DNA of 64,000 bases from NCBI GenBank assembly GCA_002368355.1, contig AP018283.1, forward strand, positions 1-64,000. Reading direction: 5' to 3'. The notes beneath the pieces are model-generated. The model worked only from the letters and a program-made list of their open reading frames with translations, ran no database searches and was not told where the DNA came from. The stretch comes from Chondrocystis sp. NIES-4102. GTDB lineage: Bacteria > Cyanobacteriota > Cyanobacteriia > Cyanobacteriales > Xenococcaceae. The position numbers were made by a program, and so were the translations under genes. Below, one piece after another: positions 1-47,079 of this stretch (the stretch's first letter is position 1; each line of letters starts with the position of its first letter).

Positions 1-189
1 GATATATGCAATGCAACGCATCCATGCAATTTTTACTTCACTCAAAAGATAAGTAAAGCTAATAGGTAGACAAGAGTAGAGTTAGCATATTATCAGATAA
101 TATGCTAACTCTACTCTTGTCTACCTATTAGCTTTACTTATCTTTTGAGTGAAGTAAAAATTGCATGGATGCGTTGCATTGCATATATC
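1..189. repeat. 189-bp near-perfect inverted repeat, candidate hairpin telomere
   Basis: Bases 1-94 are the exact reverse complement of 96-189, with one unpaired base (95) at the axis. The symmetry begins at the first base of the window. A contig that reads through a covalently closed hairpin end would look like this, so 1-94 may be the second strand of 96-189 and the physical end may lie near 95. The telomere resolvase-like gene at 55241-57349 supports this. Alternatives are a fold-back assembly artefact or a large palindromic resolvase target. The odd-length centre is atypical for known resolvase targets, which are even palindromes. Confidence 0.6.
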
Positions 190-353
190 CGAAGCCCTTA
201 CTGTATAAGGCTTTCAGACGTTGCATAAGTTTGTTGCATACTTGCATTTGCGTGATCCCCAGATTATAGATATAAATTACTTATCTTATATATCATTTTA
301 TTTAAATATTTATATCATATAGGTCATTACTTAACTCCTAATATTTAAAATAC

Positions 354-404
354 TTATCTTATTTGCTTTACTTTTTTTCTTAAGTGAAGTAAAATAAAGA
401 TAAG
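354..404. repeat. Imperfect hairpin with subterminal motif AGTGAAGT
   Basis: A CTTATCTT...AAGATAAG stem with GCTTTACTT/AAGTAAA pairing. It shares the octamer AGTGAAGT (383-390) with the palindrome arms (148-155, and its complement at 35-42), and the complement recurs at 780-787. These may be subterminal repeats or decayed copies of the terminal sequence. There is no gene between 190 and 451. Confidence 0.4.
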
Positions 405-451
405 AAAGTTAAGTAAGCTTTTTTCACCTAACAATTATTATTTTTCGCATC

Positions 452-727
452 ATGGCTAATTCTAAAGTTTCCTCTGCACCTTTACTATTGTTCTCAGTCT
501 ACATCTGTTTTATAGCGATCGCTAGTATTTTAATATTTGCAGTTATCATCATTTCAACTTTTGTAGTCCTTTCTTTTATTCTGCTTCAACGAAGCCACGG
601 CGGACAGCATGATTTAAAATCATGCTTCCGTGGGCTTCAATCTTTTTACTTTGTTAGATATCAATCATCTAAATCCAGAAATAACGATTTTTATAATCAA
701 GTTAAAGATTTAATGCTCACCATTTAA
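452..727 (+). CDS. Possible small membrane protein (weak ORF)
   Basis: A 91-codon frame whose first 46 residues form a hydrophobic, membrane-spanning stretch. The rest runs through the inverted repeat at 591-638 and has no recognisable family. The original gene may have ended near the repeat, with the tail being read-through of an inserted palindrome. No homology is recognised, and coding status is uncertain. Confidence 0.25.
   Translation: MANSKVSSAPLLLFSVYICFIAIASILIFAVIIISTFVVLSFILLQRSHGGQHDLKSCFRGLQSFYFVRYQSSKSRNNDFYNQVKDLMLTI
591..638. repeat. Interrupted palindrome (PATE or IS-end type)
   Basis: GAAGCC-ACGG ... GCATGATTT pairs with AAATCATGC ... CCGTGGGCTTC, giving two stacked stems with one bulged base. 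GC-rich palindromes of this sort occur at several places in the window (43801, 49583, 56643) and resemble ends of IS200/IS605-like elements or stand-alone palindromic repeats. Confidence 0.5.
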
Positions 728-805
728 TGCTCACCTATTAGTTAACTAGATATTTTCTTTTTAATCTTTACTCTCATTAACTTCACTCTTAAATACCAAA
801 TTACT

Positions 806-979
806 ATGAATATGATATTCACCAAGTCCGCAGCTTCTAGAATCCTTAATGTTTCCCCCAGCTTAGTTATTAAATTTGAAATCTGGCATTTCGCTAGTTA
901 CTTGATGTCTATAACTTTAATCACTCCTACCAATCTTTATTTTACTTTTCTTATTCATAATTATCTTTTTTATACTTGA
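806..979 (+). CDS. Small hypothetical protein, possible HTH-type fragment
   Basis: A 57-residue frame starting at ATG 806. The N-terminus (SAASRILNVSPSLVIKFEIW) resembles small cyanobacterial plasmid proteins that open with an 'A..LGVS...I..FE.W' helix-turn-helix-like segment. The C-terminal third is hydrophobic and lacks the usual family tail, so it may be truncated. It is followed by a GAGG-A7-CCTC mini-hairpin near 1013-1028. Function unknown. Confidence 0.35.
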   Translation: MNMIFTKSAASRILNVSPSLVIKFEIWHFASYLMSITLITPTNLYFTFLIHNYLFYT

Positions 980-1103
980 CTTTTTACAGAAAAAAAATAA
1001 TATATAAATATAGAGGAAAAAAACCTCTAAAAAATCAAAAACCTCTGAAGCTGCTGACAACAGCCACAAGAGTATTAAACATTCTCTTATCGGTATTAAG
1101 ACA

Positions 1104-1328
1104 ATGACTAAACATATCATAGCACTTCTCGAAAATCTAGTTACAGAAGGTTTTGAAACTGAAATTAAAGACGATCAATGCTTTAAACTTCGTGGGACTT
1201 ATCAAGGTTATCCCCTAGTAATATGCTCTGATCATCGTCGGCAAGAAATTTGGTTTATTAGTCGTACATTCCCAGGTATTGCAGAACTAAAATATTCTTA
1301 TGAAAGATTCTATCTTAAGTTCTGCTAA
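1104..1328 (+). CDS. Small hypothetical protein
   Basis: A 74-residue frame starting at ATG 1104 with no obvious ribosome-binding site. It has an amphipathic N-terminus (HIIALLENLVTEGFETE) and a mixed alpha/beta pattern with a YPLVICSDHRRQEIWF core. No family recognised. It sits just upstream of ardA and could belong to the same accessory cluster. Codon use is AT-rich like its neighbours. Confidence 0.5.
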   Translation: MTKHIIALLENLVTEGFETEIKDDQCFKLRGTYQGYPLVICSDHRRQEIWFISRTFPGIAELKYSYERFYLKFC

Positions 1329-1518
1329 TAGTCTGTAGATAAGAATTAGCCCTCTTGGGCTAATCCCTTTTCTCTTTAACTTATTAGTTTTACTCTAAGC
1401 TTAACTTTTAATTAAAGACCTCCAATTATTTAAGAGTAAAGATAAGAACAAACTTAGCCAGTAATTCTTAATCTGCTCATTCTTCAAACGTCCCTACTTA
1501 ATCAGGAAAATAATTACT

Positions 1519-2106
1519 ATGACCGCAACAACAGTAATTTGTACTAATGCAGTTGAAATTGATACACCTCACATTTATATTACCCCTACGCTATACTCAG
1601 TTGTCGGTGTTAATTCTAGAGTTGGAATCTGGATTAATACTATCTCATTACCTCGACACATTAAAGCTCAAATTAATCGTATTTTCCCCAATTGTGAACC
1701 ATCTCTTGATCAATTCCTGATCAAGGATACTGCGAATTTTCACGGCTTTGATATTTCTAAATTTAAAAACCTTGATTGTATTAATGCTCTTTCTACTTCC
1801 ATTAAAGAGCATGGTAAAGCCTTTACTCTCTATCTTAACTCTGAAGGTGTAGAAATTGATAGTTTACATAGTGTCGATGAACTAATCACTAATTTTGAGG
1901 AGCATTATCAGGGCTGCTTCGATTCCATTGAGGATTATGTAGACTATTATTATCAAGAGACAGGATTACTCAATAGTATTAAAGCTGCTGGCTTACCCCG
2001 TTACTATATTGATTGGGTTGCTATTGCTCGTGACTGGGAATGTTCGGGGAATTATCTGTTTTTGAAAGAATCCTATGATCAAATCCATGTTTTTACTAAT
2101 TATTAA
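1519..2106 (+). CDS. ardA: Antirestriction protein ArdA
   Basis: 195 residues. The C-terminal half carries ArdA-family features in order: EHGKAFTLYL, NFEEHYQGCFDSIEDYV, then YYIDWVAIARDWECSGNYLF and a final HVFTNY, matching the family's '...YFDYEAFARDLE...HVF' ending. The protein is acidic. ArdA is an elongated dimeric DNA mimic that blocks type I restriction enzymes, typically carried by conjugative plasmids and expressed early after entry. The N-terminal part (IYITPTLYSVVGVNSRVGIW) corresponds to the usual 'YVASLSAYNNG...GAWI' strand region. On this replicon it would help establishment in a new host. The family call is firm; the specific restriction target is inference. Confidence 0.88.
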   Translation: MTATTVICTNAVEIDTPHIYITPTLYSVVGVNSRVGIWINTISLPRHIKAQINRIFPNCEPSLDQFLIKDTANFHGFDISKFKNLDCINALSTSIKEHGKAFTLYLNSEGVEIDSLHSVDELITNFEEHYQGCFDSIEDYVDYYYQETGLLNSIKAAGLPRYYIDWVAIARDWECSGNYLFLKESYDQIHVFTNY

Positions 2107-2216
2107 TTATTGATATTTATCTCTGCTCTTATAAATAATCTTTACTTTTATACTTGACTTTTAAGTGAAGATGTGAGATTATAGAAGAGTAGAGATAAGA
2201 CAAGTCAATCCTCTAC

Positions 2217-2277
2217 AAATGATAAGCCCCCAAAGACTGCTCGTAACAGTTTCGGGGGAAATGAACACAATACACAA
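2217..2277 (+). promoter_or_regulatory. Repeated leader hairpin, copy 1
   Basis: CCCCC (2227-2231) faces GGGGG (2254-2258) across a 22-nt loop, ending three bases before ATG 2261. The last 30 bases (2248-2277), which include the start codon and six codons (MNTIHK), recur at 2577-2606 with one difference. The GGGGGAAATG arrangement puts a possible Shine-Dalgarno G-run inside the stem, so the hairpin could control translation. Confidence 0.5.
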
Positions 2278-2539
2278 GGTAATGAATATGTTCTTTGATA
2301 ATATAACTCATTCTAGCTCCGAAGTACCGATTGTCTATATGTATAAATATTCCCTTGTCTTTGCTGATGATCATGGGGATGTAGTAGAAACTATCGCAGT
2401 ATTCGATCATCTACCTACTTCTATCGATTGGGAATGCTGGAGTAATGGATGGGAGTTTCTCGGCTACAAACTTCAGAATCGACCTGTTTTAATTGAGTAT
2501 TATGATATAGCTTATCCTAATAAAAATAAGATGAGCTAA
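2261..2539 (+). CDS. Small hypothetical protein starting MNTIHK
   Basis: 92 residues from ATG 2261, chosen over an upstream ATG (2219) because the second gene of the pair has the same leader plus MNTIHK start. The body has a 'VVETIAVFDHLPTSIDWECW' segment and no recognised domain. It lies downstream of ardA and likely belongs to the same accessory block. Function unknown. Confidence 0.55.
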   Translation: MNTIHKVMNMFFDNITHSSSEVPIVYMYKYSLVFADDHGDVVETIAVFDHLPTSIDWECWSNGWEFLGYKLQNRPVLIEYYDIAYPNKNKMS

Positions 2540-2546
2540 CTCTTTA

Positions 2547-2606
2547 CAAATAATGATCCCCCAGACGAAAAGCAATAGTTTCGGGGGAAATGAACACAAT
2601 ACATAA
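2547..2606 (+). promoter_or_regulatory. Repeated leader hairpin, copy 2
   Basis: CCCCC (2558-2562) faces GGGGG (2583-2587). The loop differs from copy 1 but the 3' side through codon 6 is conserved. Sequence change in the loop with retention of the G/C stem and start region suggests selection on structure or recent duplication. Confidence 0.5.
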
Positions 2607-2898
2607 AACATCTCTTCATTCTATTTTTTTCATGACTAACTATCAGATCGACCTTTGTGATGCAATTCCTGATATCGCTGCTAACTTAATTTATCAGTCC
2701 GAGTTCAATAACTTTCCACCTGATATCTTTGAGCAATTAGTCTTTGAAATTTTAGAGGAACTTATTGAAAGATTTTCTAGTGATCCTAAAGATTATCTAC
2801 TACCCAAGCATCAAGAAAAAATAGAACAGATTGCTTACGACTATTTAGATCAAGACTTTGATAAATCTGAACTTAAGCAATATTTTCCTGGTGATTAA
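2590..2898 (+). CDS. Small acidic hypothetical protein starting MNTIHK
   Basis: 102 residues, acidic and largely helical (FEQLVFEILEELIERF, EKIEQIAYDYLDQDF). It starts with the repeated leader codons. An internal ATG (2632, MTNYQIDLCD) is an alternative start if MNTIHK is a leader peptide. No family recognised. The charge pattern would fit a DNA-mimic or antirestriction-type protein, but this is speculation from composition. Confidence 0.55.
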   Translation: MNTIHKTSLHSIFFMTNYQIDLCDAIPDIAANLIYQSEFNNFPPDIFEQLVFEILEELIERFSSDPKDYLLPKHQEKIEQIAYDYLDQDFDKSELKQYFPGD

Positions 2899-2959
2899 TT
2901 ACCATTTTACATTTTCTCATTGCCTAGTAAATCATCTTATCTTATCTTATCTTAAATTT

Positions 2960-3286
2960 ATGCTCTCTTCTTATCTGGTTCAACGCTTTAATAGCCTTGG
3001 TATTCCTTTTGATCATGCGATTGCTAGTTTAATTAATCAATATCATACCTCTCAAGTTTCGGCTGCCTTAGATCACGTCGAACGTAACAGGGAATTTATC
3101 CGCTCTCCTAAAGCTGTTTTTCTCTACCAACTACCTAAACAACCAGTAATAGAAAATAAGCCTTTACTACCTATCTATTCTGCTTCTGATTTTTCAGGCT
3201 TTACTATTGCTCACCTTAAAACTTGGTATCCTAACCACTGGCGACAAGCTACCCTTCATTTTGGTTTAACTGTTCCACACTCTTAA
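2960..3286 (+). CDS. Small protein with Rep-like C-terminal helical motif
   Basis: 108 residues from ATG 2960; the longer frame from 2858 overlaps the previous gene and has a non-protein-like start. The segment YLVQRFNSLGIPFDHAIASL followed by 'QVSAALDHVERN...I.SPKAVFLYQL' resembles the short helical repeat seen near the C-terminus of the replication-initiator-like protein at 5260-6423 (LLKMYTAEQVKGAIAIM...NPSGYFVAALKQ). It may be a shared plasmid-replication accessory motif. Exact role unknown. Confidence 0.5.
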   Translation: MLSSYLVQRFNSLGIPFDHAIASLINQYHTSQVSAALDHVERNREFIRSPKAVFLYQLPKQPVIENKPLLPIYSASDFSGFTIAHLKTWYPNHWRQATLHFGLTVPHS

Positions 3287-3395
3287 CCATAATTTTCATT
3301 CTCTGCTGTGATCTAATAAGTAATTTATTTCCAGCAGAGTAATCAACTAACTAAACCTCACTTTACATACTACTTACATTAATTTTTGATTAATT

Positions 3396-4010
3396 ATGGG
3401 TTTAACAAATTGTTCCAATTGCCAATATTATAATTCTTTTCCTCATCATCAAGATGATATTTGTTGCAGCGTACAACCTGCTTACGCCACCATGTACAGT
3501 AAACTTAAAGATTTAGACTCCTATAGTATTAATTGTCTTCCCTTAGATGACTGTAACGATTTCCAGCTTGATCCTCAATTAGTAGAGAAAACCATTACTT
3601 TTTCTCTAACTTTTCAACAGTGGCAACAATTAGCCCGTGATTCCTCTTGCACATCTAATATCTTAAACTTTCTACAAAACTTAAAAATTGAATATACTTT
3701 ATCTTTAACTATTTCTGATTGGCAAGCGATCGCTAATCATTCTTATAGTCAACCTGTGCTACAGCAATTAGAACAACAGCAAATTTACCCTAATGATTTA
3801 ACTGAGGCATGGATTGAAATTGATTCTTCCTGTATTAATGCTACTGCTTACAATCAGCAAACATCAATACTTAAGATTCGTTTTAATAGTGGTTATGAAT
3901 ATAAGTATTTTAATGTTAGTCCTAATATTTTTGCCGACTTCTGTGCAGCAGATTCTAAAGGAAAATTCTTTAATCAATATATCAAGGATATTTACGACTA
4001 CTCAATTTAA
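3396..4010 (+). CDS. KTSC domain-containing protein with N-terminal Cys cluster
   Basis: 204 residues. The N-terminus has CSNCQYY and ICC, a possible metal-binding cluster. The middle repeats a 'LTFQQWQQLARDS...ILNFLQNL / LTISDWQAIANHS...VLQQLEQ' unit. The last 60 residues (SSCINATAYNQQTSILKIRF...YEYKYFNVSPNIFADF...SKGKFFNQYI) form a KTSC domain (named for lysyl-tRNA synthetase C-terminal-like proteins), a small fold often attached to replication or RNA-related proteins. The domain call is good; the biological role is unknown. Confidence 0.7.
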   Translation: MGLTNCSNCQYYNSFPHHQDDICCSVQPAYATMYSKLKDLDSYSINCLPLDDCNDFQLDPQLVEKTITFSLTFQQWQQLARDSSCTSNILNFLQNLKIEYTLSLTISDWQAIANHSYSQPVLQQLEQQQIYPNDLTEAWIEIDSSCINATAYNQQTSILKIRFNSGYEYKYFNVSPNIFADFCAADSKGKFFNQYIKDIYDYSI

Positions 4011-4156
4011 CACAGGCTAGCTTAACAAGTCCGTGTCATCATACAATAATGTTGCAAAAATAGGTAAGTTCATTTTGCGAACTATTACTATCTCTTCTTA
4101 TAACTGCGATGACTTTAACTGATCTTCCGAGTAAAGACATTATTTATTCGATCTGT

Positions 4157-4216
4157 TAATCACCTTTAATTTACCCTCACACATTATGCAATTACAAAAA
4201 TGATGAGGAACTTTAG
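4157..4216. repeat. 60-bp direct repeat, copy 1 (second copy in the candidate oriT region)
   Basis: 55 of 60 positions match 16308-16367, including an unbroken run ACCCTCACACATTATGCAAT and beyond. The other copy lies between the divergently transcribed relaxase and accessory mobilisation gene. The rest of 4011-4772 holds only a 47-codon frame and no other recognisable signal. Confidence 0.75.
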
Positions 4217-4458
4217 ACTAAAATTTTGGGTATTTAGCCTTATTAATTAACACTGCTAAATTAAAGCCTTAAACAGTCATTATGTACACTAAAATTTTGA
4301 GCTGTGAAACGACGGCGAACTTGTACAGACTGTTAGCATCGAAGCTTGGAGCGCAATGTAAAATTTTTAACGGGCTAACCGCTCAGGCCCGATCATAACT
4401 TATACAACTACTCATATATTTGCAGTAACAACAATGGTAAATAATAGATTAACTGTTG

Positions 4459-4602
4459 ATGCTCAAGCAATTTGAAGAGGGAAGATTAACTTTTATATCT
4501 ACTAATCATCCTAGTAACTATTTTAATCAAGATTATTCAGCACAAATAAGTCACCTAGCCGACGCTTTATCCAGTCGCAGCAGTAATTTGTTAATCGAAT
4601 AA
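4459..4602 (+). CDS. 47-residue ORF, probable gene remnant
   Basis: ATG 4459 to TAA 4602, protein-like composition (FEEGRLTFISTNHPSNYF, QISHLADALSSRSSN) and in frame throughout. It looks like the C-terminal piece of a longer protein that I do not recognise. It stands alone in a 760-base region without other genes. Confidence 0.3.
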   Translation: MLKQFEEGRLTFISTNHPSNYFNQDYSAQISHLADALSSRSSNLLIE

Positions 4603-4772
4603 TTACATTAATACTATTTTTATTTATATCTAATTGAAAATGGTTAATAATTAGTGCTAAATAAAATAAATCGGTCAGGACGCAAACCTGAACCCATAGT
4701 GCGATCAGGTCTGATCGTTGAGCAATCTTTTATAAACGATAACTATTTTTTTGTTAACAATATTAAATAACT

Positions 4773-5219
4773 ATGAAAATAATTGAATATCTTAAGCCTA
4801 ATATAGAATCACAATTTAAATATAAATTTCCTGGTCATTCAGTAAATAGTCTATGTAAATTAAAATATTATTTTGCTGATAATTCAACTTCAAAACAGAT
4901 TATTATTTTAACAGAACTATTAGATAATCCAGGGGCATCAATTACTAATGCTGCTGAATTTTTATACCCTCAATTAAGAAACTTTTTTTGTCGAAAATAT
5001 GAAATAGATCTTCAACCGAACGCAATTCTTATTGAGCATTATCAAGCCAATCATTACGGTGATATCGAACCACCTCGATTTTCTTTATTTGATCTAGAAG
5101 GAAGATTCAAACATCTTTCAGTAGAAGATTTAGCATTGATATTTAAGGAAAATTATTCTAATCAGTGGCAAGCGATTGCTACTTTAGAGTATTTATATCA
5201 AGGAAATAAATCAGAATAA
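4773..5219 (+). CDS. Conserved cyanobacterial hypothetical protein
   Basis: 148 residues. The pattern KIIEYLKPNIESQFKYKFPG, then IIILTELLDNPGASITNAAE and ILIEHYQ resembles a cyanobacterial family of unknown function seen on chromosomes and plasmids. A mixed alpha/beta fold is likely. It is transcribed toward the convergent rep operon that ends at 5260. No catalytic motif recognised. Confidence 0.6.
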   Translation: MKIIEYLKPNIESQFKYKFPGHSVNSLCKLKYYFADNSTSKQIIILTELLDNPGASITNAAEFLYPQLRNFFCRKYEIDLQPNAILIEHYQANHYGDIEPPRFSLFDLEGRFKHLSVEDLALIFKENYSNQWQAIATLEYLYQGNKSE

Positions 5220-5259
5220 TTGTCATAGATAACACATTAGTTAATTAAGCGATTTAAAT

Positions 5260-6423
5260 TTATTGCCCATTTTTATTACGCTTCATTATTTTCTTTAAAT
5301 AATCCAAAGAATAACCACGCCCTACCGCATCCTCCCACTTTTCCCATGATCCAGATAATAATACCCATTGCTCCCCTTCTTTGATTTCTTGACCACTACA
5401 ATAACCAAGTTCACGAGCTAAATCATACCAATGACGAAATATAGCAGCCGTGTCCACCTCTGTTAATGATTCTGAATTTTCTACAACTTGCCCCGTTGCC
5501 CATCCTTGTTTGAGTGCTGCCACGAAATATCCAGAAGGATTCGGTATATATTGATCCCGCCTTCTGGATTTCATTATGGCGATCGCTCCTTTAACTTGTT
5601 CTGCTGTGTACATTTTTAGCAAGTTGACCACAGTTTTATTTACTGGTATCCCTGTACTATCTAACAAAGGTATCAACTCTCTCCATCTTTCGTTGACTAT
5701 ATAATCAACCTGGGGGACTGTTTTGTTTTCATCAAGATTTTGTTTATTTAGTTCTGATTCTTCGTTATTTTGGGCAACAGAGGCAGTTAAATCTTGTCTT
5801 GGTGATTCTACTCTCTGTTGGTTTCCCTCTTGATTTAAATTTAATTTTTCAGAGGCAGCAGCAATATCAAATTCTTGCTTGACTTGTTTGAATTGGCGAT
5901 TACCCAAAGGGTACGCTACGCGATCGATTTGGTTTTGTTTTGTTGTTATATCTAATGATGTATTCTTTGTTTCATTATATGAGATGTTACTATCCCTCAT
6001 CTCAAGGTGTTGGTTATTCTCATCTTGATCTGTGTACTTCCACATCTCGGAGATTTCAATACTTTGGGAACTTTGGGACTTGAGATATTCATTTAATCGA
6101 TCGCTATCTAAAGTGTAATAGTTTGTCTGATTCCACTGTTTCGATTTGTACCTGATTACTTTGACGATACCGAGCGATCGCAGCAAAGACATTGCCTTCC
6201 TAAATTGCCATACGCTCAACCAGCTAAATTGCTCTTTTACCCACTGGTAAAATGTGTTGTATACGTATTTAATCCCGTTTACTATTACCCCAACATCCTT
6301 CTTCTTCATCCAGTAATGTAGTTGTTGGACTATTATTGCTGCGTTTACGTCTCCTAACGCAGTGGCTATGGAAGCATCAAAGTGTCTAGTGCTGCTTGGG
6401 GAGGTCGCCAAGATACTACTCAT
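5260..6423 (-). CDS. Replication initiator-like winged-helix protein
   Basis: 387 residues from ATG 6423. The N-terminal 120 residues (GDVNAAIIVQQLHYWMKK, YNTFYQWVKEQFSWLSVWQF) form a winged-helix module like phage O/DnaD-type and plasmid initiators. A low-complexity linker follows (about 130-245), then a helical C-terminal region with QVKGAIAIM and NPSGYFVAALKQGW. The GTG at 6429 is in frame, but ATG 6423 overlaps the upstream stop as TAATG behind a GGAGGTGAG ribosome-binding site, so the two genes are probably translationally coupled. The linker carries an in-frame 24-bp HIP1-type insertion. It most likely starts replication at this plasmid's origin; biochemical function is inferred. Confidence 0.65.
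   Translation of the reverse strand: MSSILATSPSSTRHFDASIATALGDVNAAIIVQQLHYWMKKKDVGVIVNGIKYVYNTFYQWVKEQFSWLSVWQFRKAMSLLRSLGIVKVIRYKSKQWNQTNYYTLDSDRLNEYLKSQSSQSIEISEMWKYTDQDENNQHLEMRDSNISYNETKNTSLDITTKQNQIDRVAYPLGNRQFKQVKQEFDIAAASEKLNLNQEGNQQRVESPRQDLTASVAQNNEESELNKQNLDENKTVPQVDYIVNERWRELIPLLDSTGIPVNKTVVNLLKMYTAEQVKGAIAIMKSRRRDQYIPNPSGYFVAALKQGWATGQVVENSESLTEVDTAAIFRHWYDLARELGYCSGQEIKEGEQWVLLSGSWEKWEDAVGRGYSLDYLKKIMKRNKNGQ
5896..5926. repeat. 24-bp small dispersed repeat inserted in a HIP1 site (in frame)
   Basis: GCGAT is split from CG by 24 bases (5901-5924, TACCCAAAGG...CTACGCGAT). Eight codons are added to the rep linker without a frameshift. A similar element splits the aldo/keto reductase at 26137-26170, and the same copy persists in the decayed duplicate at 8578-8608. 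It fits the class of small dispersed repeats described in cyanobacterial genomes. Confidence 0.7.
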
Positions 6424-6974
6424 TACCACTCACCTCCTGCCAATGCTTCTAAGTCTTGGGTAAAGAACTGCGATGCACCACAACTGGATAAAACGGCAGC
6501 TACCAATGCCCGTTTTTGCGCCATCTTACATATCGTGTTTGTTAGGTCAAAGATTTTATATTTCTGGCAATCGTATTTTTTCTCTTTGGAGTTACAACTA
6601 CCATCCCCTTGTCCGACCATTTCTCCTTGTCTAACTAACGTACATCTGTAGTGATAGTGAAATAGAGGTTTATCAAAATCGGTCACGAAATGGATTAATT
6701 CGTAGCTTGGGCGTAGGCTGAACAACCTACACAGTTTCTCTGCTCCTGGTTTCAATAAGGTGGGCTTCGATGTGCTTGGTATCACTCCATAGTCTATGTT
6801 CTCTACCATCTGGGTTTTTACAAACCTCACCATCAATCTGTAATGTTGAGCAGTATGAGACAGGGCATTCTGGTATATAGGGTCAATAGTTTCTGTAGCT
6901 ACTATCAACCCTTGTTTTGGGATTTTATTCATTCTTTTTAACTGATATTTTTGACCACGGAAAGAAACCACCAT
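6423..6974 (-). CDS. Conserved phage/plasmid protein, possible ssDNA-annealing role
   Basis: 183 residues. Conserved blocks are MVENIDYGVIPSTSKPTLLK, PGAEKLCRLF, HYHYRCTLVRQGEMVGQGDG and TICKMAQKRALVAAVLSSCG followed by FFTQDLE. These match a widespread family in actinobacterial and cyanobacterial phages and plasmids, usually left as hypothetical and sometimes placed near recombination or annealing proteins. It is the middle gene of a three-gene operon (7240 to 5260) and overlaps the rep start by one base. A role in replication or recombination follows from context only. Confidence 0.65.
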   Translation of the reverse strand: MVVSFRGQKYQLKRMNKIPKQGLIVATETIDPIYQNALSHTAQHYRLMVRFVKTQMVENIDYGVIPSTSKPTLLKPGAEKLCRLFSLRPSYELIHFVTDFDKPLFHYHYRCTLVRQGEMVGQGDGSCNSKEKKYDCQKYKIFDLTNTICKMAQKRALVAAVLSSCGASQFFTQDLEALAGGEW

Positions 6975-7006
6975 TACTCCAAGACAAGTAATGATGGTTG
7001 ATGGAT

Positions 7007-7240
7007 TTAGAACTCAGTCGGTATTTCTACCCCTAACTTTTTCGCCCAATATTCTCTGCTTCCTGTTTGATACCCTGACCAATAACTGTGTTTCTCTGGT
7101 GCAGATGGTTCTAACCCTATCAGTCCATCGAAAAATCCCGCCGAATACATATCTGTCTCCAGGCTGGCTTCGTTATGAATTCTGTCAACTTCTTGTTTTT
7201 CCCGATTCTCTTGTTCTACACTTAGATATAAATTAATCAT
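7007..7240 (-). CDS. Small conserved protein of the replication operon
   Basis: 77 residues from ATG 7240, preceded by AAGGAATCAACATG; the longer upstream frame lacks a plausible start region. The conserved body YSAGFFDGLIGLEPSAPEKH, then YWSGYQTGSREYWAKK and a GVEIPTEF ending, matches a short family seen beside plasmid genes in cyanobacteria. Function unknown. First gene of the operon with 6423-6974 and 5260-6423. Confidence 0.65.
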   Translation of the reverse strand: MINLYLSVEQENREKQEVDRIHNEASLETDMYSAGFFDGLIGLEPSAPEKHSYWSGYQTGSREYWAKKLGVEIPTEF

Positions 7241-7310
7241 GTTGATTCCTTCAATATGGTTTCTATGAGGGTGGTTGTTAGCATCTGAAACTTCAACCAC
7301 CCCTCTTATT

Positions 7311-7378
7311 ATTATAATTAGTATACAGATAAAAATCAACTTTTTATGAACAATTTTTAATTGTATACTTGCTATAAT
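7311..7378. promoter_or_regulatory. Divergent promoter region with 17-bp operator-like inverted repeat
   Basis: Arms 7320-7336 and 7353-7369 match at 15 of 17 positions (AGTATACAGATAAAAAT against its complement), 16 bases apart. Leftward promoter: TTGATT (7334-7339) and TATAAT (7311-7316, minus strand), spacing 17. Rightward -10: TATAAT (7373-7378), with a weak -35. The repeat overlaps both promoters, fitting control by the ribbon-helix-helix protein encoded at 7414. Confidence 0.6.
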
Positions 7379-7413
7379 AAATTTACTCAATACTCAATAT
7401 CTAACTTTTGTTT

Positions 7414-7617
7414 ATGCCAGGAACTAAGACTAGCGGTAGACCAGGCGGTAATCCTGACCTTAAAAAATATGGTTTTCAAAGTGACCGTGATGAACCTTTG
7501 CGCGAACGGTTACAGATTCGAGTCCCCCTTTCTATGAAACAACAGCTTCAACAACAAGAAAATTGGCAAGAATTTGTTAGAAATGCGATCGCTGAAAAGC
7601 TTCAAAAATCTGCTTAA
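7414..7617 (+). CDS. Ribbon-helix-helix protein, candidate copy-number regulator
   Basis: 67 residues from ATG 7414 (the in-frame TTG at 7408 is less likely). A basic N-terminus (GRPGGNPDLKKYGF) is followed by RLQIRVPLSMKQQLQQQ and WQEFVRNAIAEKLQ, which reads as beta strand, helix 1, helix 2 of a MetJ/Arc/CopG fold. It is divergent from the rep operon across an inverted repeat, an arrangement typical of plasmid copy-control repressors. A fragment of this gene also sits in the decayed duplicate near 8676-8727. DNA binding is inferred. Confidence 0.6.
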   Translation: MPGTKTSGRPGGNPDLKKYGFQSDRDEPLRERLQIRVPLSMKQQLQQQENWQEFVRNAIAEKLQKSA

Positions 7618-7630
7618 ATTAAATTATTAT

Positions 7631-8155
7631 CTACTGTTTGTAAATGGTGTATCCACTAGGAGAAGATTCAATTACAGTCTTTGTTACTCTTTGATAGTAA
7701 GCAAGAAGCTGTTCCCAAGTTAAATCACTAGCCTGTTCTAGATCCATACTCCAAGTATCCCCCACAGGATCGACGAAGATAATTTTGCCCCCAGACCAAA
7801 AATTATCTTGAACATCAACAACAAGATTTTTCAGTATGTCCACTCGACTTGCCATTGACCACCATTTTTGGGCAGGACTTTTAAAGTTGGGATTTTCTAG
7901 AAAACTGTCTTGCCATTCGATGGGAGTCCAGTTATGAGTAAAAGCTTCAATTAATAACTGATTGGCATTACCAATTTCTCGATTCTGATTTTGTAACCAA
8001 TACCAATAAGAAATAATCGCTTGAAATTTGCTTTCAAGATTATGACTACAACTTTCAATCAAATCAACAACCGAGTAATCTTCAAAATCAACACCGATTG
8101 TTACTAAAGCATTTTTATATTTGAGGAAAATTTCTTTTTCAACATCATTAAGCAT
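7631..8155 (-). CDS. Hypothetical protein
   Basis: 174 residues from ATG 8155 (MLNDVEKEIF); the further upstream start would be TTG. The protein is helix-rich in its first half (SKFQAIISYWYWLQNQNREI) and has a beta-rich tail with GGKIIFVDPVGDTWSMDLEQ. No domain recognised. It converges with the ribbon-helix-helix gene, ending 13 bases from its stop. Confidence 0.5.
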   Translation of the reverse strand: MLNDVEKEIFLKYKNALVTIGVDFEDYSVVDLIESCSHNLESKFQAIISYWYWLQNQNREIGNANQLLIEAFTHNWTPIEWQDSFLENPNFKSPAQKWWSMASRVDILKNLVVDVQDNFWSGGKIIFVDPVGDTWSMDLEQASDLTWEQLLAYYQRVTKTVIESSPSGYTIYKQ

Positions 8156-8347
8156 CAATTTAACTAGAATCACAGTTTTCAGAAAATCAAGCAATTTTGG
8201 CTGTAAAACTTACCCTTTGGCTTAATCTCCCTTAATTTCATCTTATCCTAAATTAGTGCGATCGCTCATGCAATGCTCCGCTTAATCACTTTTTGGGTAA
8301 ACTAAAGCGATTGCCTAAGTAGACGCAACTGCGTAATCCCTCAGTTA

Positions 8348-8815
8348 AACAAGATATTAACTCTCTGCATTGCTTGTTGACTGTATAATCAATTTGGGGA
8401 ACTGTTTTGTCCTCATCAAGATTTTGTTTACTTGGTTCTGATTCGTTGTTATTTTGGGCAACAGAGGCAGTTGAATCTTGTTTTGGTTTCTATATCTTGT
8501 TGGTCTTCCTCTTGATTTAAATTTAATTTTTTAAGAGCAGCAGCAGTATCAGATTCTTGCTTGACTTGTTTGAATTGGCGATTACCCAAAGGGTACGCTA
8601 CGCGATCGCTATTGCTATGCTGTAGTTAAAACCTCAAAATAAATATTTATTAGTACAACTATACCTCACATATTAAATGCGATCTCTGAAAAACTTCAGA
8701 AATCTGCTTAAATTGAATTATTAGGTACTACTTTTATTTCATGTTTTTTTACATCCAGTAATACAATTGCTGGACTCTCATTGCTGCGTTCATACCTTTT
8801 AGTGGGTGTGGCAGA
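8348..8815 (-). pseudogene. Decayed, rearranged copy of the replication region
   Basis: 8348-8608 aligns with the rep gene at 5662-5926, including the 24-bp HIP1 insert. 8676-8727 aligns with the end of the ribbon-helix-helix gene (7583-7632), and 8752-8815 with the rep 5' part (6309-6365). The blocks carry many substitutions and indels, their order differs from the functional region, and no frame is open. This is a relic of an earlier duplication or of a second related plasmid. Confidence 0.75.
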
Positions 8816-8903
8816 GATGCTTAATTTAAAGAACACGGATTTAAATATATTTAGTTATAAAGATCTAGATCACTGCCATTAAATAATTAATAGTTCAAAG
8901 TGA

Positions 8904-8928
8904 AAAAATTAGTTTAACTAATTTTTTT
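8904..8928. terminator. A/T hairpin
   Basis: AAAAATTAG TTTAA CTAATTTTTT is a 9-10 bp stem with a T-run, immediately before the ATG at 8929. It looks like a terminator for rightward reads, so the ORF that follows would need its promoter elsewhere or be translated from a hairpin leader. Confidence 0.4.
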
Positions 8929-9177
8929 ATGAAATTAAATATCAAAAATATTAATCAGTTTGTTGACTTTATTGAACCTATTTGTAAGTGGGCGATATCA
9001 ATACTTAGCATTTTAATTGCAGCTATCTGCTTTGCTGTGTTTACTATAGGTTTTACCAAATTTGCATTGATTTTCTACGGCATTGTATTTATAGGCATAA
9101 GCATCATTTTTTGTCCAATGAGCCAATTTAAGCGTTTGATAACAATATCAATTGCGTATTTATTGATGTTTTATTAG
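8929..9177 (+). CDS. Small membrane protein
   Basis: 82 residues with three hydrophobic segments (about 18-38, 42-62 and 68-82: WAISILSILIAAICFAVFTI, FALIFYGIVFIGISIIF). No family recognised. Start ATG 8929 follows directly on the A/T hairpin. A small inner-membrane protein is likely if the gene is expressed. Confidence 0.4.
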   Translation: MKLNIKNINQFVDFIEPICKWAISILSILIAAICFAVFTIGFTKFALIFYGIVFIGISIIFCPMSQFKRLITISIAYLLMFY

Positions 9178-12655: not shown

Positions 12656-12664
12656 AATAATTGA

Positions 12665-16367: not shown

Positions 16368-16533
16368 CGTAAAAAAAAAGGAAAATCAACATTGTAAATT
16401 ACTGCTTTTTTACGGAAATTTTAGATTATCATAATCTATGTTAATATTTGTTAAATATAATTTATTGAAATTGTTAACAAATCAATTTTGATGCAAAATT
16501 AGTTTGATAGGTGCATACTATTTCTTTTCAATC

Positions 16534-19335
16534 ATGGTTTGCTCAATAGGAATTCCTTATCATAATTTCGCTAATTATGCAGAAGACAATTTACTGATAA
16601 ATATAGAGGAAGGCAAAAGCTATGCAATTACTAATCATGTAATCGTGTCACAGATAAACAATAACGAATTTATCAAAGAAGACGATGGACAGCAGCAATT
16701 GCAAAGTAACGAAAATTCTAGGCAACGTATAGCAGAAAATAGCAGATGGTTTGGTGATGGAGCGCAGTCACTTGGATTATCAGGTCAGATAAATTCACTT
16801 AGTTATAGAAATATCTATCAAGGAGTAGACAATAATGAATTACCGTTAAGAAGAAAGTTAAAAAAACAAAATCCAGTACCAGGAAGAGATCTAACTTTTT
16901 CTGCACCCAAATCAGTTTCACTTTTGGGCTTAGTTCAAGAAAATAAACAGATAATAGATGCTCATAATCACTCAGTTAATCGTGCCTTAGAATATGTTGA
17001 GCATAATTGTATTTATACGAGAATAGGCACAGGAAAAAAATCGTACCAACAAACTAATAATTTAGTCGCTGCGATTTTCAATCACCAAGATAGTCGAAAT
17101 TTAGATCCTAATCTTCATAGTCATTGTGTGATTTTCAATTTAACTCAAGGTAATGATGATAAATGGCGTGCAATGGATAACAGAGAACTTTACCGTCAAC
17201 GAATTACTATAGGTTTAATCTATCATCACGAATTGGGTCAAAAATTAACAGAACTTGGCTACTCTGTTAATTGGAATAACAATGGCACTATTGAGCTTGC
17301 TAATTTTAAGCCTGAACATCTACAACAATTTAGTTCTCGCAGAACGGAAATTTTAGAAGTTGCTGGTGTCGATAGTAGTGCCAAGATTAAGGCTATTGCT
17401 TGCATTTCTACAAGAAATCAAAAGCAATATATTAAAGCTGATGATAGAAAAATTATTAGAGCGAGTTGGATAGATAAATATAGTGCTTTAAATATATCTA
17501 GTTTTAACAATGATAATAAGAATATTGTTGAAGCTAAAAAAACTCTAGAAAATGGGCAGCAATATGTATCTTCAACTTATCTAATTGATCAGACAATCAA
17601 AAGTTTAAATACAGAAAATAAAGTTTACTTTTCAAAGCATGAAATATTAAAAAAAGCGTTAATGCAATCACAAGGTCGATTTCAATTGTCATTGCTTCAA
17701 CAAACTATATCTCAGCATCCTAGTTTAATCGAAACTAAGGCAGGGAAATACACAACTTTTGCTTTACAACAAAATGATAAATTGTACAGTAATAAGGATA
17801 TAAGAGAAAGACATATAGATACCTATGATTATAGTCACCCGCAGCAAACACTAAGAAGTAACTTGAATCCTAGTGTTCTAGATTTAGCTACTTTATCATT
17901 TGAATCTGAACAATTTAATTTGCCTTCCTCATCATCAAAATTTCAATTATTAATGATCGAAGATGACCCTACATCTGAACATACAGATGTAAAATTGATA
18001 AACAATAACAAAGGTGTAGTATTTAAGGTTATAGAAAATTATCTTCAGACTAATGAAAACCAGCAAACCAAAACTATTATTCTTACAGATGCAAAATTCG
18101 ATGAGGAGCAAATTACTTCTTCGTTAAGAAATGAACTTATTAAACAGAAAAAACTTGGTGATTTTCCATTACGTTCTGTTTGTTTAGAACGTAAGCAAAT
18201 ACAGAAAGCAAATTATAATCAACTTAAAAATTATCAAGTTGGTAATATGATTAAGTTTAATCGTGAGTCTAAAAAATTTAGTAATCAGCACTTGTATAAA
18301 ATATTGGATATCGATGAAAACAAAAGAATTCTAATTTTAGGAAACCGTTTTGGAAAAATAATGGAACTTCCTATAGATCGATATCGCGATCGCCAAGTTT
18401 ATGACGTAAAAAGGAGAGAACTGCGCGTCAACGATAAATTACGTTTTAATCATAGTCAGTACTTTAAAGGTAAGCAAGTATTGGCAAGGCAATCTTTCAT
18501 TATCAGCAAAATAGCAAGTAAAGATAAAATCACTATTGAAATGAATGGTAAAAAAATTATTGTGAAAAGTAGTGAATTATTGTATGCAGGATATAATTAC
18601 GCTGATACAATCAAAGAACGTTGCAATGCAAAAATTAATAATTGTATCTATTTATCTTCAGCGAATAAGCCAGATTATTTATTGAAAGAAGATATATATA
18701 ATGCTGCTACTCTTACAAAAAATGAACTTACAGTATATACATCTACTAGTTCATTGAATCAACATCAATATTCTAAATCAAATACAAAATTAATACAATT
18801 ATCTGATAACACTAATAATATTTCTAAAAGATTCATGGATAATATAAGTTCAACTAATAAAAACGAGCCTAATATTAAGGAATTGAATGATTTAGTAAAT
18901 GAAAATCATCAGTTTTCGCAATTAAAATTAGAACCAACACAATCTTCTAATTCACTAATTAAGCCAATTGATTATCATAAAAGTATTGAAGATACTTTAT
19001 TTGATATTGCTAGTTCAGCGAAATATATTGTGTTAAATGAAGGACAAAAATGTATGAAATCTGTTGATAAAGAGCCAAGCGCAAATGGAGGGCTATTAGA
19101 TAAAATAATTTATAATTCACCTGATGGGTTAATTATAGAAAAAGATTCTCAAAATCTATCTATTTATTACGATGGTAAAACTATAGAATTTGATCAAGAT
19201 TATAAAGTTAAACGTCAAGAATTAAATGAAAATCAGACAAGACAGTTAACTCAAAAAACACAAACTATTAAACAGCAAATTATAGAAAGAGATCAAGCGC
19301 AAAATATTAATCAAAGTCTAGATTTATCTAGATAA
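16534..19335 (+). CDS. MobF-family conjugative relaxase with degenerate helicase region
   Basis: 933 residues from ATG 16534, where MVCSIG...FANYAEDNLL aligns with the usual MobF start 'M.SI......A.YY' (the in-frame TTG at 16504 is less likely). Candidate nucleophile Tyr15. Conserved blocks: WFGDGAQSLGLSG, GRDLTFSAPKSVSLL, IFNHQDSRNLDPNLHSHCVI with the metal-binding His184/195/197, and KWRAMDNRELYRQ. The distance from the Tyr to WFGDGA is longer than usual. The C-terminal half keeps TraI-like blocks (YQVGNMIKFNRESKKF) but I find no Walker A motif, so unwinding may depend on another helicase. It nicks oriT and pilots the strand. Confidence 0.85.
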   Translation: MVCSIGIPYHNFANYAEDNLLINIEEGKSYAITNHVIVSQINNNEFIKEDDGQQQLQSNENSRQRIAENSRWFGDGAQSLGLSGQINSLSYRNIYQGVDNNELPLRRKLKKQNPVPGRDLTFSAPKSVSLLGLVQENKQIIDAHNHSVNRALEYVEHNCIYTRIGTGKKSYQQTNNLVAAIFNHQDSRNLDPNLHSHCVIFNLTQGNDDKWRAMDNRELYRQRITIGLIYHHELGQKLTELGYSVNWNNNGTIELANFKPEHLQQFSSRRTEILEVAGVDSSAKIKAIACISTRNQKQYIKADDRKIIRASWIDKYSALNISSFNNDNKNIVEAKKTLENGQQYVSSTYLIDQTIKSLNTENKVYFSKHEILKKALMQSQGRFQLSLLQQTISQHPSLIETKAGKYTTFALQQNDKLYSNKDIRERHIDTYDYSHPQQTLRSNLNPSVLDLATLSFESEQFNLPSSSSKFQLLMIEDDPTSEHTDVKLINNNKGVVFKVIENYLQTNENQQTKTIILTDAKFDEEQITSSLRNELIKQKKLGDFPLRSVCLERKQIQKANYNQLKNYQVGNMIKFNRESKKFSNQHLYKILDIDENKRILILGNRFGKIMELPIDRYRDRQVYDVKRRELRVNDKLRFNHSQYFKGKQVLARQSFIISKIASKDKITIEMNGKKIIVKSSELLYAGYNYADTIKERCNAKINNCIYLSSANKPDYLLKEDIYNAATLTKNELTVYTSTSSLNQHQYSKSNTKLIQLSDNTNNISKRFMDNISSTNKNEPNIKELNDLVNENHQFSQLKLEPTQSSNSLIKPIDYHKSIEDTLFDIASSAKYIVLNEGQKCMKSVDKEPSANGGLLDKIIYNSPDGLIIEKDSQNLSIYYDGKTIEFDQDYKVKRQELNENQTRQLTQKTQTIKQQIIERDQAQNINQSLDLSR

Positions 19336-19351
19336 AATATTAATAAATAGC

Positions 19352-21007
19352 ATGAATAACACTAATAAAGAGCTTGATTTTTCCAAACTCTGGATGATTT
19401 TGTACGCTATCTTCATTTTATTGCTTGCATCATTATATTGGACAATTAAAAACCCAGAAATTACTGTTTTTTTAATTAACCATCCTATTATTATATTACC
19501 CTATCTTATCGATACTTACGGCTTATTTAAAATTGCACTTTCTATATTAATAGTTATCGGCTTCATTCCTTTAATTTTAGTCTTACCTTCTTCTAATCAA
19601 TCAAAGGAATCTAAAGTTATCAGAGGAGCAAGAGTGATTGATAACCATAAATTAAAAGATATTATGGTTAATACTTGTATTGAAGAAATTGCAGAAGAAA
19701 TAAAATTGACTCGAAGAAAATCCAAAAAGATAACAATACTATATATATTAAAAGAAAAATTAAGAAAACCATTAAGAATAGTTGAAGCTAAAAAAATATA
19801 TAAAAAAAAGAAAGATAGTTATCTTCAGATTGGTGGTATTCCAATGCCTCGACAATTTGAAAATAGAGGATTTTTCTTTTTTGGCGATCCAGGTACAGGA
19901 AAAAGTCAGTCTATCAAACAAATCTTAGCTACTCTAAAAAAACGTCCTGATTTTCGAGGTATTATTTTTGATCGTAATGGCGAAATGCTCAAACAGTTTT
20001 ACGATCCAAGTAAGGATTTGATTTATAATCCTTTCGACAGCCGTAGTGTAGATTGGTGTCATGATTACGAGGAGGGAGTAAGACCAGAAACAATGGCAGA
20101 AGCTTTAATACCACCTCCTTTGCCTGGCGAAACTCCTTATTTTAATTATGCAGCAAGAGTTGTAGTTAGTGAAATTTTTCGTAAATCAACGACTAATAAG
20201 CAATTTTACCAATTAATTACAAGATCTGACGAAGAAATAAAAAGTGATTTACAAGGTACATTAGCTGCTAGATACGTAGCTGAAATAAAATTAGCAAGTT
20301 CCGTTCTATCAACAGCAATTAATTATTGTAAGTTTTACCGATATGTTGAAGAACCGAAACCCGATAAGATTAGCTTTTATAATTGGGCTTATAACGATGA
20401 TCCCAGATGGATTTTTATTACTTTGAAAGAAAATGATGCCCCAGTTTTAAAACCTTTGCATAGTATGCTCTTTGAACTTATGCTTAAGGGACTATTATCT
20501 AATCAAAATAGAAAAATCAAAACCGCAATAATTATAGATGAATTAGGAGCTTTAAACAAACTTGATAGTCTAAAAAGATTATTAAATGAAAGTCGTAAGT
20601 TTTTAGGATGTCCTTTTTTGGGAACTCAAACTCATGCTCAAATTTCAGAAATTTACGGTGATAAGGAAACTAGTATTTTATTGCAGGGAACTCTTACAAA
20701 ACTTATGCTCCGTTGTAGTGATCCCGAAACTTCCGAGAAGATGGCTATTTTAATAGGTAAACGAGAAATGATTAGATATAAAACTAATCAAAGCCAAACC
20801 GCAGCAACTTTTAAAAATCCTGGATCTAAAACTAAAACTGTTGTTGAAGATTATAATGAAAGCTACGCAGTTTTACCTGCTGATGTGAGTAACAGAGATG
20901 ATATGGAAGGATATCTTAAAACTAAAAAATTTACTGCTAAAGTACAAGTGCAATATCATCCTTTTCCAGATTTGCACCCAGATTTCGTTGGCTCACAAAA
21001 TATTTAA
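19352..21007 (+). CDS. Type IV coupling protein (VirD4/TraD/TrwB family)
   Basis: 551 residues. Two N-terminal membrane helices (WMILYAIFILLLASLYW; about 50-75). Walker A is FFFFGDPGTGKSQSIKQIL, Walker B IKTAIIIDELGALNKL, followed by the T4CP LNESRKF...GTQTHAQISEIYG and LQGTLTKLMLRCSDPET blocks. It couples the relaxosome to the type IV channel and pumps DNA. Starts 16 bases after the relaxase stop, so they form one transcript. Length and motifs are complete. Confidence 0.88.
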   Translation: MNNTNKELDFSKLWMILYAIFILLLASLYWTIKNPEITVFLINHPIIILPYLIDTYGLFKIALSILIVIGFIPLILVLPSSNQSKESKVIRGARVIDNHKLKDIMVNTCIEEIAEEIKLTRRKSKKITILYILKEKLRKPLRIVEAKKIYKKKKDSYLQIGGIPMPRQFENRGFFFFGDPGTGKSQSIKQILATLKKRPDFRGIIFDRNGEMLKQFYDPSKDLIYNPFDSRSVDWCHDYEEGVRPETMAEALIPPPLPGETPYFNYAARVVVSEIFRKSTTNKQFYQLITRSDEEIKSDLQGTLAARYVAEIKLASSVLSTAINYCKFYRYVEEPKPDKISFYNWAYNDDPRWIFITLKENDAPVLKPLHSMLFELMLKGLLSNQNRKIKTAIIIDELGALNKLDSLKRLLNESRKFLGCPFLGTQTHAQISEIYGDKETSILLQGTLTKLMLRCSDPETSEKMAILIGKREMIRYKTNQSQTAATFKNPGSKTKTVVEDYNESYAVLPADVSNRDDMEGYLKTKKFTAKVQVQYHPFPDLHPDFVGSQNI

Positions 21008-45514: not shown

Positions 45515-46423
45515 CTAGAGCAGACTTTCCATTTCTTGAATAATCTTTTGTAGTTTTCTTTGTTTTTTTGAATCGCTAGATATTTTAGAAGAACGAAGAA
45601 CTTTACTATACACTTTTTTAAAATCACTTTTAATATCATCAAAATTCTCTGCTTTCATTACAGGTTTTTTATTAGATATTAATTTTTTTATCTCTTCTTT
45701 TATTTTATCTCTGTTCCAATTTTCTTTTACAACTCTTTCGACAATTTCTTTAGCTAGATTTTCATCAGACGATGCTAATTTCGCAATCATTGGAACACAA
45801 TAATCTGACATATCACCACGTTTGATAGGATCGAGAATAAAATTAGGTAATTTTAGAAGTCTTAATCTTTTTTTCACAAAAGTATTAATAGAAATTTCAG
45901 ATGTTCTGCTGAAAATATCTTCAACTGATTCTATGAAATCAATTGGTACATCAGTAATTTTCTTATTACCAATCCTATGTAAATATGTAACAATTGTTTC
46001 TTGATTTTCTTTAGTAGTTAACTCTATTAAATTTAAAGTTGCTAAAGTGTCATCAATTAAATTTAATTTAGATCTTTGTCTATTTTCTATTAAAGCTATT
46101 TCAAAAGCTTGAATATCATTAAAATCTTTTACTTTAGCTTCTATAATTTCGCAACCAGCTTCCTTTGATGCCCAATATCTTTTCTCACCCGCTACTATTA
46201 AATATTTATCTGTTTTTTCAGGATGTGATCTAACTATTATGGGTGAAAGCTGCTCATAATTTTTAATCGAATTAGCTAAATCTGTTATTTCTTGAGGATC
46301 TATAAAATTACGAGGTTGGTTCTTCCATACCTCTATTAAATCTAGAGATATATTAATTACAGATGTTTCTTCCTCTTTAGTTAGTACATCTAAATTAAAG
46401 TCGGCTAGTGAATTAAATGCCAT
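45515..46423 (-). CDS. parB: ParB/Spo0J-family partition protein
   Basis: 302 residues. The N-terminal ParB domain has LIEVWKNQPRNFIDPQEITD, IIVRSHPEKTDKYLIVAGEK and the ENRQRSKLNLID helix. The middle DNA-binding domain is followed by a basic C-terminal tail (KKVYSKVLRSSKISSDSKKQ). It binds a centromere and stimulates ParA; parA lies 29 bases upstream in the same operon. The 3' end adjoins the omegaRNA guide region of the IscB element. Confidence 0.85.
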   Translation of the reverse strand: MAFNSLADFNLDVLTKEEETSVINISLDLIEVWKNQPRNFIDPQEITDLANSIKNYEQLSPIIVRSHPEKTDKYLIVAGEKRYWASKEAGCEIIEAKVKDFNDIQAFEIALIENRQRSKLNLIDDTLATLNLIELTTKENQETIVTYLHRIGNKKITDVPIDFIESVEDIFSRTSEISINTFVKKRLRLLKLPNFILDPIKRGDMSDYCVPMIAKLASSDENLAKEIVERVVKENWNRDKIKEEIKKLISNKKPVMKAENFDDIKSDFKKVYSKVLRSSKISSDSKKQRKLQKIIQEMESLL

Positions 46424-46452
46424 AGTTCTATGTATTATTATTAAATAATTTC

Positions 46453-47079
46453 TTATATCGTAAATTCTTGAAATAATTTATGATAGTCTTGTGCTGCTCT
46501 TTTTCCAGAAGCACCCATATCAAACACTGTTTTGCCGTATTGAGGTGCTTTACGAATGATTTGTAAATTACTAATCGGCGTTAATAGTTTTATTTTATTT
46601 TTTAAAAAGTATTCCGATGCTTGCTTGAAACTAGTAGTATTAGTTTCTACTAAACTTAAAAAGAATCCTACACCTAAATCTTTCCTAATCGTCATTTTTC
46701 TCTTGATAATGCGGATAATTGATAATGTATCGGTTAAATCCAAAGTTGAAGCTTGAATTGGTATTAATACTCGATCACAGACATCTAACGCATCTTTCAC
46801 TGATTCTGATTCACCAGGAAGATCTATTACTACGATATCAACATTTGAATTATCAATCGTAGATAACATTAATTCTGTATTAGTCTCTTGAATATAGTCA
46901 ATTCCTAAGTCCTTAGCCCAGCAATTAGCTCCTAGTTGAGATGAGGCATTAATAAAGAGCAATTTTTTTTCAGGATTTGCTATTAGTAGCCATTTAGCTA
47001 GATGCAAACTAGTTGTAGTTTTGCCTACTCCACCTTTAATATTAGCAACCGCTAAGACTTGTTTTTTCTGTTCACTCAT
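46453..47079 (-). CDS. parA: ParA partition ATPase
   Basis: 208 residues. The deviant Walker A ANIKGGVGKTTTSLHLAKWL, Walker A' LFINASSQLGANCWA (the usual Asp is replaced by Asn-Ala-Ser) and Walker B VDIVVIDLPGESE identify a small type Ib ParA. It forms the segregation operon with parB and the short gene upstream, whose stop it overlaps by one base at 47079. Confidence 0.85.
   Translation of the reverse strand: MSEQKKQVLAVANIKGGVGKTTTSLHLAKWLLIANPEKKLLFINASSQLGANCWAKDLGIDYIQETNTELMLSTIDNSNVDIVVIDLPGESESVKDALDVCDRVLIPIQASTLDLTDTLSIIRIIKRKMTIRKDLGVGFFLSLVETNTTSFKQASEYFLKNKIKLLTPISNLQIIRKAPQYGKTVFDMGASGKRAAQDYHKLFQEFTI

Follow-up and report, generated by a model that had tools for sequence, protein, structure and literature searches.

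An odd-centred end palindrome on a probable linear hairpin plasmid of the cyanobacterium Chondrocystis sp. NIES-4102

Introduction

In the general model of hairpin telomeres, as parts of two published accounts give it, the replicated hairpin junction is cut and refolded by a telomere resolvase (PMC7861564, PMC3558466). Where the corresponding sections describe a target, namely the TelN oligonucleotide and the TelA core, it is even (PMC12624138, PMC3558466); the TelA target has the even core TCATGA with scissile positions 6 bp apart (passage in PMC3558466), unlike the odd axis described below. The linear plasmids of the Rhizobiaceae are hairpin-ended, with sizes of ~77-83 kb and terminal inverted repeats of 1.1-1.2 kb (PMC13293297, whose main text contains no words beginning "palindrom" or "odd"), and the consulted portion of PMC13221069 holds no passage on stagger or on cyanobacteria.

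Few linear cyanobacterial replicons have been described, a statement of the earlier note on this DNA with which the relevant part of PMC5987646 agrees. There, the Nostoc sp. N6 plasmids pNPM8-10 are presented as linear, with inverted-repeat ends and closed hairpins already inferred from reads, and the only other known linear replicons named are the linear chromosome of Cyanothece 51142 and an element of Anabaena variabilis. Two linear plasmids are given for Nostoc ATCC 53789 in a section of PMC7118181, and several public plasmid records labelled linear carry genes named protelomerase or telomere resolvase. In the titles and abstracts of the open-licence literature, the scope of our search, there was no mention of odd-axis telomeres or of the resolvase clade associated with them here.

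The contig considered here, C3, resembles pNPM8-10 (as described in part in PMC5987646) in being, on our reading, a cyanobacterial linear plasmid with inverted-repeat ends. Compared with the Rhizobiaceae plasmids (PMC13293297), its inverted repeat is much longer at 8.6 kb, and it too has topA near the resolvase gene. Like C3, plasmid pGLO7428.02 of Gloeocapsa sp. PCC 7428 (NC_020051; deposited as linear, typed conjugative) has an end palindrome, a protelomerase gene and an exact terminal inverted repeat, of 1,340 bp; unlike C3, it has an even axis, GGAATTCC, and a resolvase of a distant clade.

Results

The window, the whole stretch of 64,000 nucleotides analysed, starts at base 1 of C3 (AP018283.1, 123,154 bp), one of seven contigs of a 5.0-Mb genome, which places its opening palindrome at a contig end. 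This 189-bp palindrome, which the earlier note had called near-perfect around an axis at base 95, is perfect apart from the axis base: positions 1-94 and 96-189 form 94-nt arms that are 100% complementary, with one unpaired base (95) between them, against a chance expectation of ~2e-48 for such a palindrome in 64 kb.

1..94, no strand: copy of the opposite strand made by read-through (snap-back beyond the axis), not unique plasmid sequence; 100% complementary to 96-189, stopping at contig base 1
95..95, no strand: telomere axis, one central base (A on the + strand), core TATC-A-GATA; this core recurs at the right end (123053-123067) and at further telomeres within the clade
95..8629, + strand: exact terminal inverted repeat, left copy, with the axis taken as its start; its right counterpart has its axis at contig base 123060

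The same half-palindrome was found at the opposite end of C3, in the same register and within a terminal inverted repeat in which 8,629 bases are identical between the opposite strands of the two ends before immediate divergence. Both contig ends read back on themselves in the assembly (94+1+94), and the first and last 189 bases match at 188/189 positions on the same strand, so that an assembler might also join the two ends into a circle. In a scan for arms of at least 13 across 1.23 Mb, and of at least 10 in C3, perfect palindromes with arms >23 occurred only at contig ends. An internal TATTATC-T-GATAATA at C3:95446 was considered as a second resolution site and taken as chance, its arm being <10 and its surroundings lacking telomere-like neighbours. 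GC skew, looked at for an internal origin, is mixed internally, and the inverted repeat by itself dictates that the two ends have opposite signs.

The telomere resolvase-like gene that the earlier note placed at 55241 is borne out by profile and structure matches.

55241..57349, + strand: telomere resolvase gene, 702 aa; PF16684 (E=3.2e-34), 12-sequence alignment, TelA structure 4dwp (E=5.5e-7)

Its product scores 118.5 bits against PF16684, the ResT/TelK catalytic family (cut-off 27), and 53.1 bits against the NCBIfam TelA equivalog NF052462, below the cut-off of 800. The best solved relatives are chains named protelomerase, including 4dwp and 4e0g, the latter given as TelA in the pertinent part of PMC10686437. 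Catalytic positions were assigned by pairing with the TelA catalytic set as named in a passage of PMC3558466; the putative residues R142, K167, H243, R246, H274 and Y295/Y298 are invariant in the alignment of 12 relatives. The protein has catalytic positions corresponding to those of TelA of Agrobacterium tumefaciens, which resolves replicated telomeres, but it differs from that enzyme in its greater length (702 aa), in its C-terminal domain (conserved, about residues 620-700) and in having H for Y at the 363 position. Two further resolvase genes lie in the same genome: that of C4 shows 46% identity in the alignment, and that of C6 is shorter. A structure prediction of the C3 resolvase from two sequences reached a mean pLDDT of 38 and was discarded, and an IMG/VR scan with the resolvase profile returned five pattern matches with no relative among them. 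Within the order, 75/388 genomes match the profile at E <=0.001, some of these matches being weak or partial; PF16684 also scores above its cut-off in a control genome, that of Synechococcus elongatus.

We surveyed 49 contigs or records picked by Pfam, tblastn or profile matches to the resolvase (G014:C7 and G379:C28 match in the C-terminal part only). A perfect end palindrome, required to start at the first base of the contig and to have an arm of at least 9, was present at 17/90 ends, on 13 contigs, and at none of 60 control ends without a resolvase match: 0/20 from ten contigs taken at both ends, some of them probably circular replicons cut anywhere, and 0/40 contig starts. Fisher's test by end gives p=0.038 with 20 controls and 1e-4 with 60, treating as independent the ends of one contig, which are not so; counted per contig against the first ten controls, significance is not reached (p=0.098).

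The palindrome arms at the 17 ends range from 9 to 94 bp. One and the same telomere, present in two assemblies, has 18-bp arms in G124:C5 and 63-bp arms in G091:C6, so that arm length is set by where the assembly stopped, which is what reading through a closed hairpin would give; a palindrome that was a biological part of a longer molecule should have one length throughout and a flanking sequence. G124:C5 shares its end with the Gloeocapsa PCC 7428 record NC_020051, and G010:C30 begins ~5 bases short of the axis of a telomere closely resembling that of G010:C48. C4 (149,096 bp), which has its own related resolvase, ends on the right in a palindrome of 46+1+46 with the same core as C3, whereas its left end has no telomere in the assembly and its last 3,000 bases were not found a second time in the genome. 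End palindromes were absent from four G015 contigs with resolvases, from Leptolyngbya pLBX, pLBY, NIES-3755 plasmid1 and NIES-2135 plasmid2, and from Gloeothece Cy782202 and Cy782206; the right end of Cy782202, Cy782206 and the IU 594 record discussed below lie outside the 49.

The odd-length centre, which the earlier note had entered as a caveat to its hairpin reading, proved to recur at five distinct telomeres in four genomes, all belonging to one resolvase clade: C3 (both ends), C4 (right end), G014:C16, G010:C48 and G295:C79. The core is TATC-W-GATA at the first four and GTTC-W-GAAC at G295:C79, TC-W-GA being common to all five, and folding either strand of an odd core alone leaves a 3-base tip. 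In this the five targets depart from the even axis of the studied resolvases ResT, TelA, TelK and TelN, and a single-base centre is not anticipated by the present model of these enzymes. At the other 11 ends, which represent seven distinct telomeres, all outside the odd clade, the axis is even: GGAATTCC in G124 and G091, TTAATTTAAATTAA in G382, G211, G215 and G362, ATTATTTAAATAAT in G170 and TTAATCTAGATTAA in G158. The Nostoc sp. N6 end AAATTAACRGAC, as printed in the part of PMC5987646 concerned, differs from C3 in the same way, as it fits the even core shared by G382:C5, G211, G215 and G362, members of another resolvase clade.

A maximum-likelihood tree of 44 catalytic domains (among them G006:C261, which is outside the end survey) places the five odd rows on one side of a branch with support 98/98 and the eight even rows opposite, and one change between odd and even axis suffices on it. 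When labels were shuffled on the tree, an equally good arrangement arose in 2/500 trials for odd and 0/500 for even. Because long branches meet outside the odd clade, only the odd/even split was used and the deep order was left aside. As defined here, the odd clade has five contigs with a telomere, from four genomes; these are 5/15 of its contigs whose ends were examined, the other 10/15 lacking an end palindrome, and we assume that loss of such ends in assemblies is frequent. When the two 15-base odd cores were searched in 376 genomes, they matched in 7 and 17 genomes; besides the known telomeres the matches are scattered, at least 1,500 bases internal and with arms of 7-12 wherever a locus was given (G001:C315 had none).

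Subterminal motif repeats, which the earlier note had seen in the first 800 bp and regarded as usual for subterminal repeats, are real on C3. There are four copies of AGTGAAGT in bases 1-800, on both strands, the pair in the palindrome at 35 and 148 being mirror images, and eight of the nine copies across the whole of C3 lie at its two ends. As a general subtelomeric repeat or telomere motif, AGTGAAGT was rejected, since none of the five other ends checked has it within its first 800 bases. A separate block recurs more widely.

220..260, + strand: subtelomeric block; GTTGCATA at 220 and 233, TGATCCCC at 253

This block (TTGCATA; GATCCCC or GGGATCGATA) is common to C3, C4, G014:C16, G010:C48 and G015:C1, ~100-250 bases from the axis; in the last four, TTGCATA lies <=250 bases from the end, and it was not found at the G295:C79 end. 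It is possibly a protein-binding site.

C3 also carries the following genes.

1519..2106, + strand: ArdA antirestriction protein gene, within the inverted repeat; PF07275 (E=1.5e-22)
5260..6429, - strand: replication-initiation/DnaD-like helicase-loader-like gene, within the inverted repeat; phrog_6493 (E=2.9e-15), phrog_11233 (E=5.6e-9)
16504..19335, + strand: TrwC-type relaxase gene; PF08751 (E=1.7e-68)
19352..21007, + strand: TrwB-type coupling protein gene; PF10412 (E=4.8e-72)
45515..47079, - strand: ParB and ParA partition genes; PF02195; PF13614 and PF01656
50923..52965, + strand: type I DNA topoisomerase gene (topA), near the resolvase gene; TIGR01051 over its cut-off

Lying within the inverted repeat, the ArdA gene and the replication-protein-like gene (the latter without a Pfam match) are each present in two copies on C3. 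The relaxase and the coupling protein suggest that C3 may be mobilisable; mobility as a general trait of resolvase plasmids was set aside, 17/20 records with a related gene being typed non-mobilizable. The only other match to PF01131 in the genome is on C1, and this topoisomerase family has no match on C4. C3 further carries a type III restriction-modification pair and an Xre/RES toxin-antitoxin pair. An AAA ATPase gene (58309-59838, - strand) encodes an ATPase domain with matches to the IetA models for a defence system (best E=1.2e-18), which may reflect no more than shared AAA similarity.

Discussion

The ends of C3 are identical and inverted, their palindromes are snap-backs whose extent depends on the assembly, and the same molecule encodes a resolvase with the expected catalytic residues. 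C3 is therefore very probably a linear plasmid of ~122.97 kb whose two telomeres are identical, covalently closed hairpins, and the suggestion of the earlier note that a hairpin telomere lies at the start of the window is supported by the matching half-palindrome at the far end, the 8.6-kb inverted repeat and the plasmid's own resolvase. Taken as a whole, with the odd axis included, the reading of C3 as a linear plasmid with hairpin telomeres remains a likely one. From these features we infer covalent closure of the ends, the replication route and cleavage at the C3 telomeres.

It is conceivable, although we think it unlikely, that C3 is a linear hairpin plasmid of the ordinary kind, in which the odd axis base arises from an error of consensus or assembly, the real axis being even and cut at 6-bp spacing. 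In favour of this, snap-back regions are difficult to polish. An error would, however, have had to arise at five distinct telomeres in four genomes and in step with the resolvase clade, while the same test yields even axes in other clades.

A circular C3, in which two 8.5-kb repeats stand head to head and the 189 bp are the untrimmed overlap of a circular contig, is improbable to a slightly greater degree. The 188/189 same-strand match between the contig ends is what such an overlap would give, and two related resolvase-bearing Leptolyngbya plasmid records are labelled circular. Yet this arrangement would require an almost perfect 17-kb palindrome in a circle, and nucleases that attack long palindromes usually destroy such structures; the plasmid's own resolvase should moreover cut that junction. 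Among the comparable records, the circle of Leptolyngbya boryana IU 594 opens with the same bases as the linear record of the same plasmid, and pGLO7428.02 of Gloeocapsa PCC 7428, with the same end architecture as C3, was deposited as linear.

Fold-back chimeras formed during amplification or library preparation do create terminal palindromes, but as the source of these ends they are scarcely credible, given the same axis at both ends of C3, a core common to other genomes and 0/60 control ends with a palindrome. A protein-capped linear plasmid of the Streptomyces kind, with short end palindromes and 3-base loops, would share the long terminal inverted repeats and small loops seen here, and is just as remote in view of arms that vary from 9 to 94 bp over 17 ends, one telomere with two lengths in two assemblies and the presence of a telomere resolvase.

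Returning to the linear plasmid with hairpin telomeres, we propose that replication would round each C3 hairpin and leave a junction that is palindromic; the tyrosine-type resolvase encoded by the plasmid itself would cut this junction and refold it into two hairpins. As the axis is odd, two cuts placed symmetrically about it must be separated by an odd number of bases, and we lean towards a spacing of 5 or 7 bases (5- or 7-nt overhangs), compared with 6 in the studied enzymes. The overhang ATCAGAT or TCAGA would then fold back with a CAG tip and the partner product would have a CTG tip, so that the two products of one junction would differ at the axis base and each end would occur as two complementary variants. 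Poxviruses are known to have flip-flop hairpin ends. It seems somewhat more likely than not that this entire clade of cyanobacterial resolvases acts on odd targets in this manner, with a 5- or 7-base stagger and unlike CAG and CTG hairpins, one of each per junction.

An odd axis cannot be cut symmetrically with a 6-bp spacing, and these enzymes therefore test how far the protein fixes stagger and refolding; moreover, since one junction must yield hairpins with different axis bases, ordinary reads could reveal the outcome of resolution. Our survey suggests that such resolvases are common in cyanobacteria. What is new appears to be the odd centre, as linearity alone is not, the Nostoc sp. N6 plasmids having already been published.

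Several related elements were seen alongside. G000:C6 (L017, 18,150 bp) is a small plasmid of phage-like character, whose bases 1-1099 recur in inverted orientation at the opposite end as an exact terminal repeat of 1,099 bp.

5802-9011 of G000:C6: 1069-aa ORF
11652-12659 of G000:C6: short telomere resolvase, 335 aa
14971-16398 of G000:C6: terminase

Judged by its motifs, the 1069-aa ORF, which has no Pfam or NCBIfam match, seems to encode a family B DNA polymerase. Comparable short resolvases are present on Stanieria NC_020052 and on the linear Gloeothece Cy782206; a contig of G011, a genome from the same family group as that of C3, is identical over its whole 12,398 bases to NC_020052, a plasmid of Stanieria cyanosphaera PCC 7437. 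On short-resolvase contigs, the C-terminal domain of the long resolvases is found as a separate ORF (L017 10875-11579, G011:C6, G025:C78, G382:C7 and G132:C12), an arrangement that looks like a division of the enzyme between a catalytic protein and a partner. Finally, Leptolyngbya boryana IU 594 p2 (NZ_CP092421, circular) and NIES-2135 plasmid2 (AP018205, linear) have the same opening bases, and in each record the two ends are inverted near-copies; the circular label of IU 594 p2 looks doubtful.
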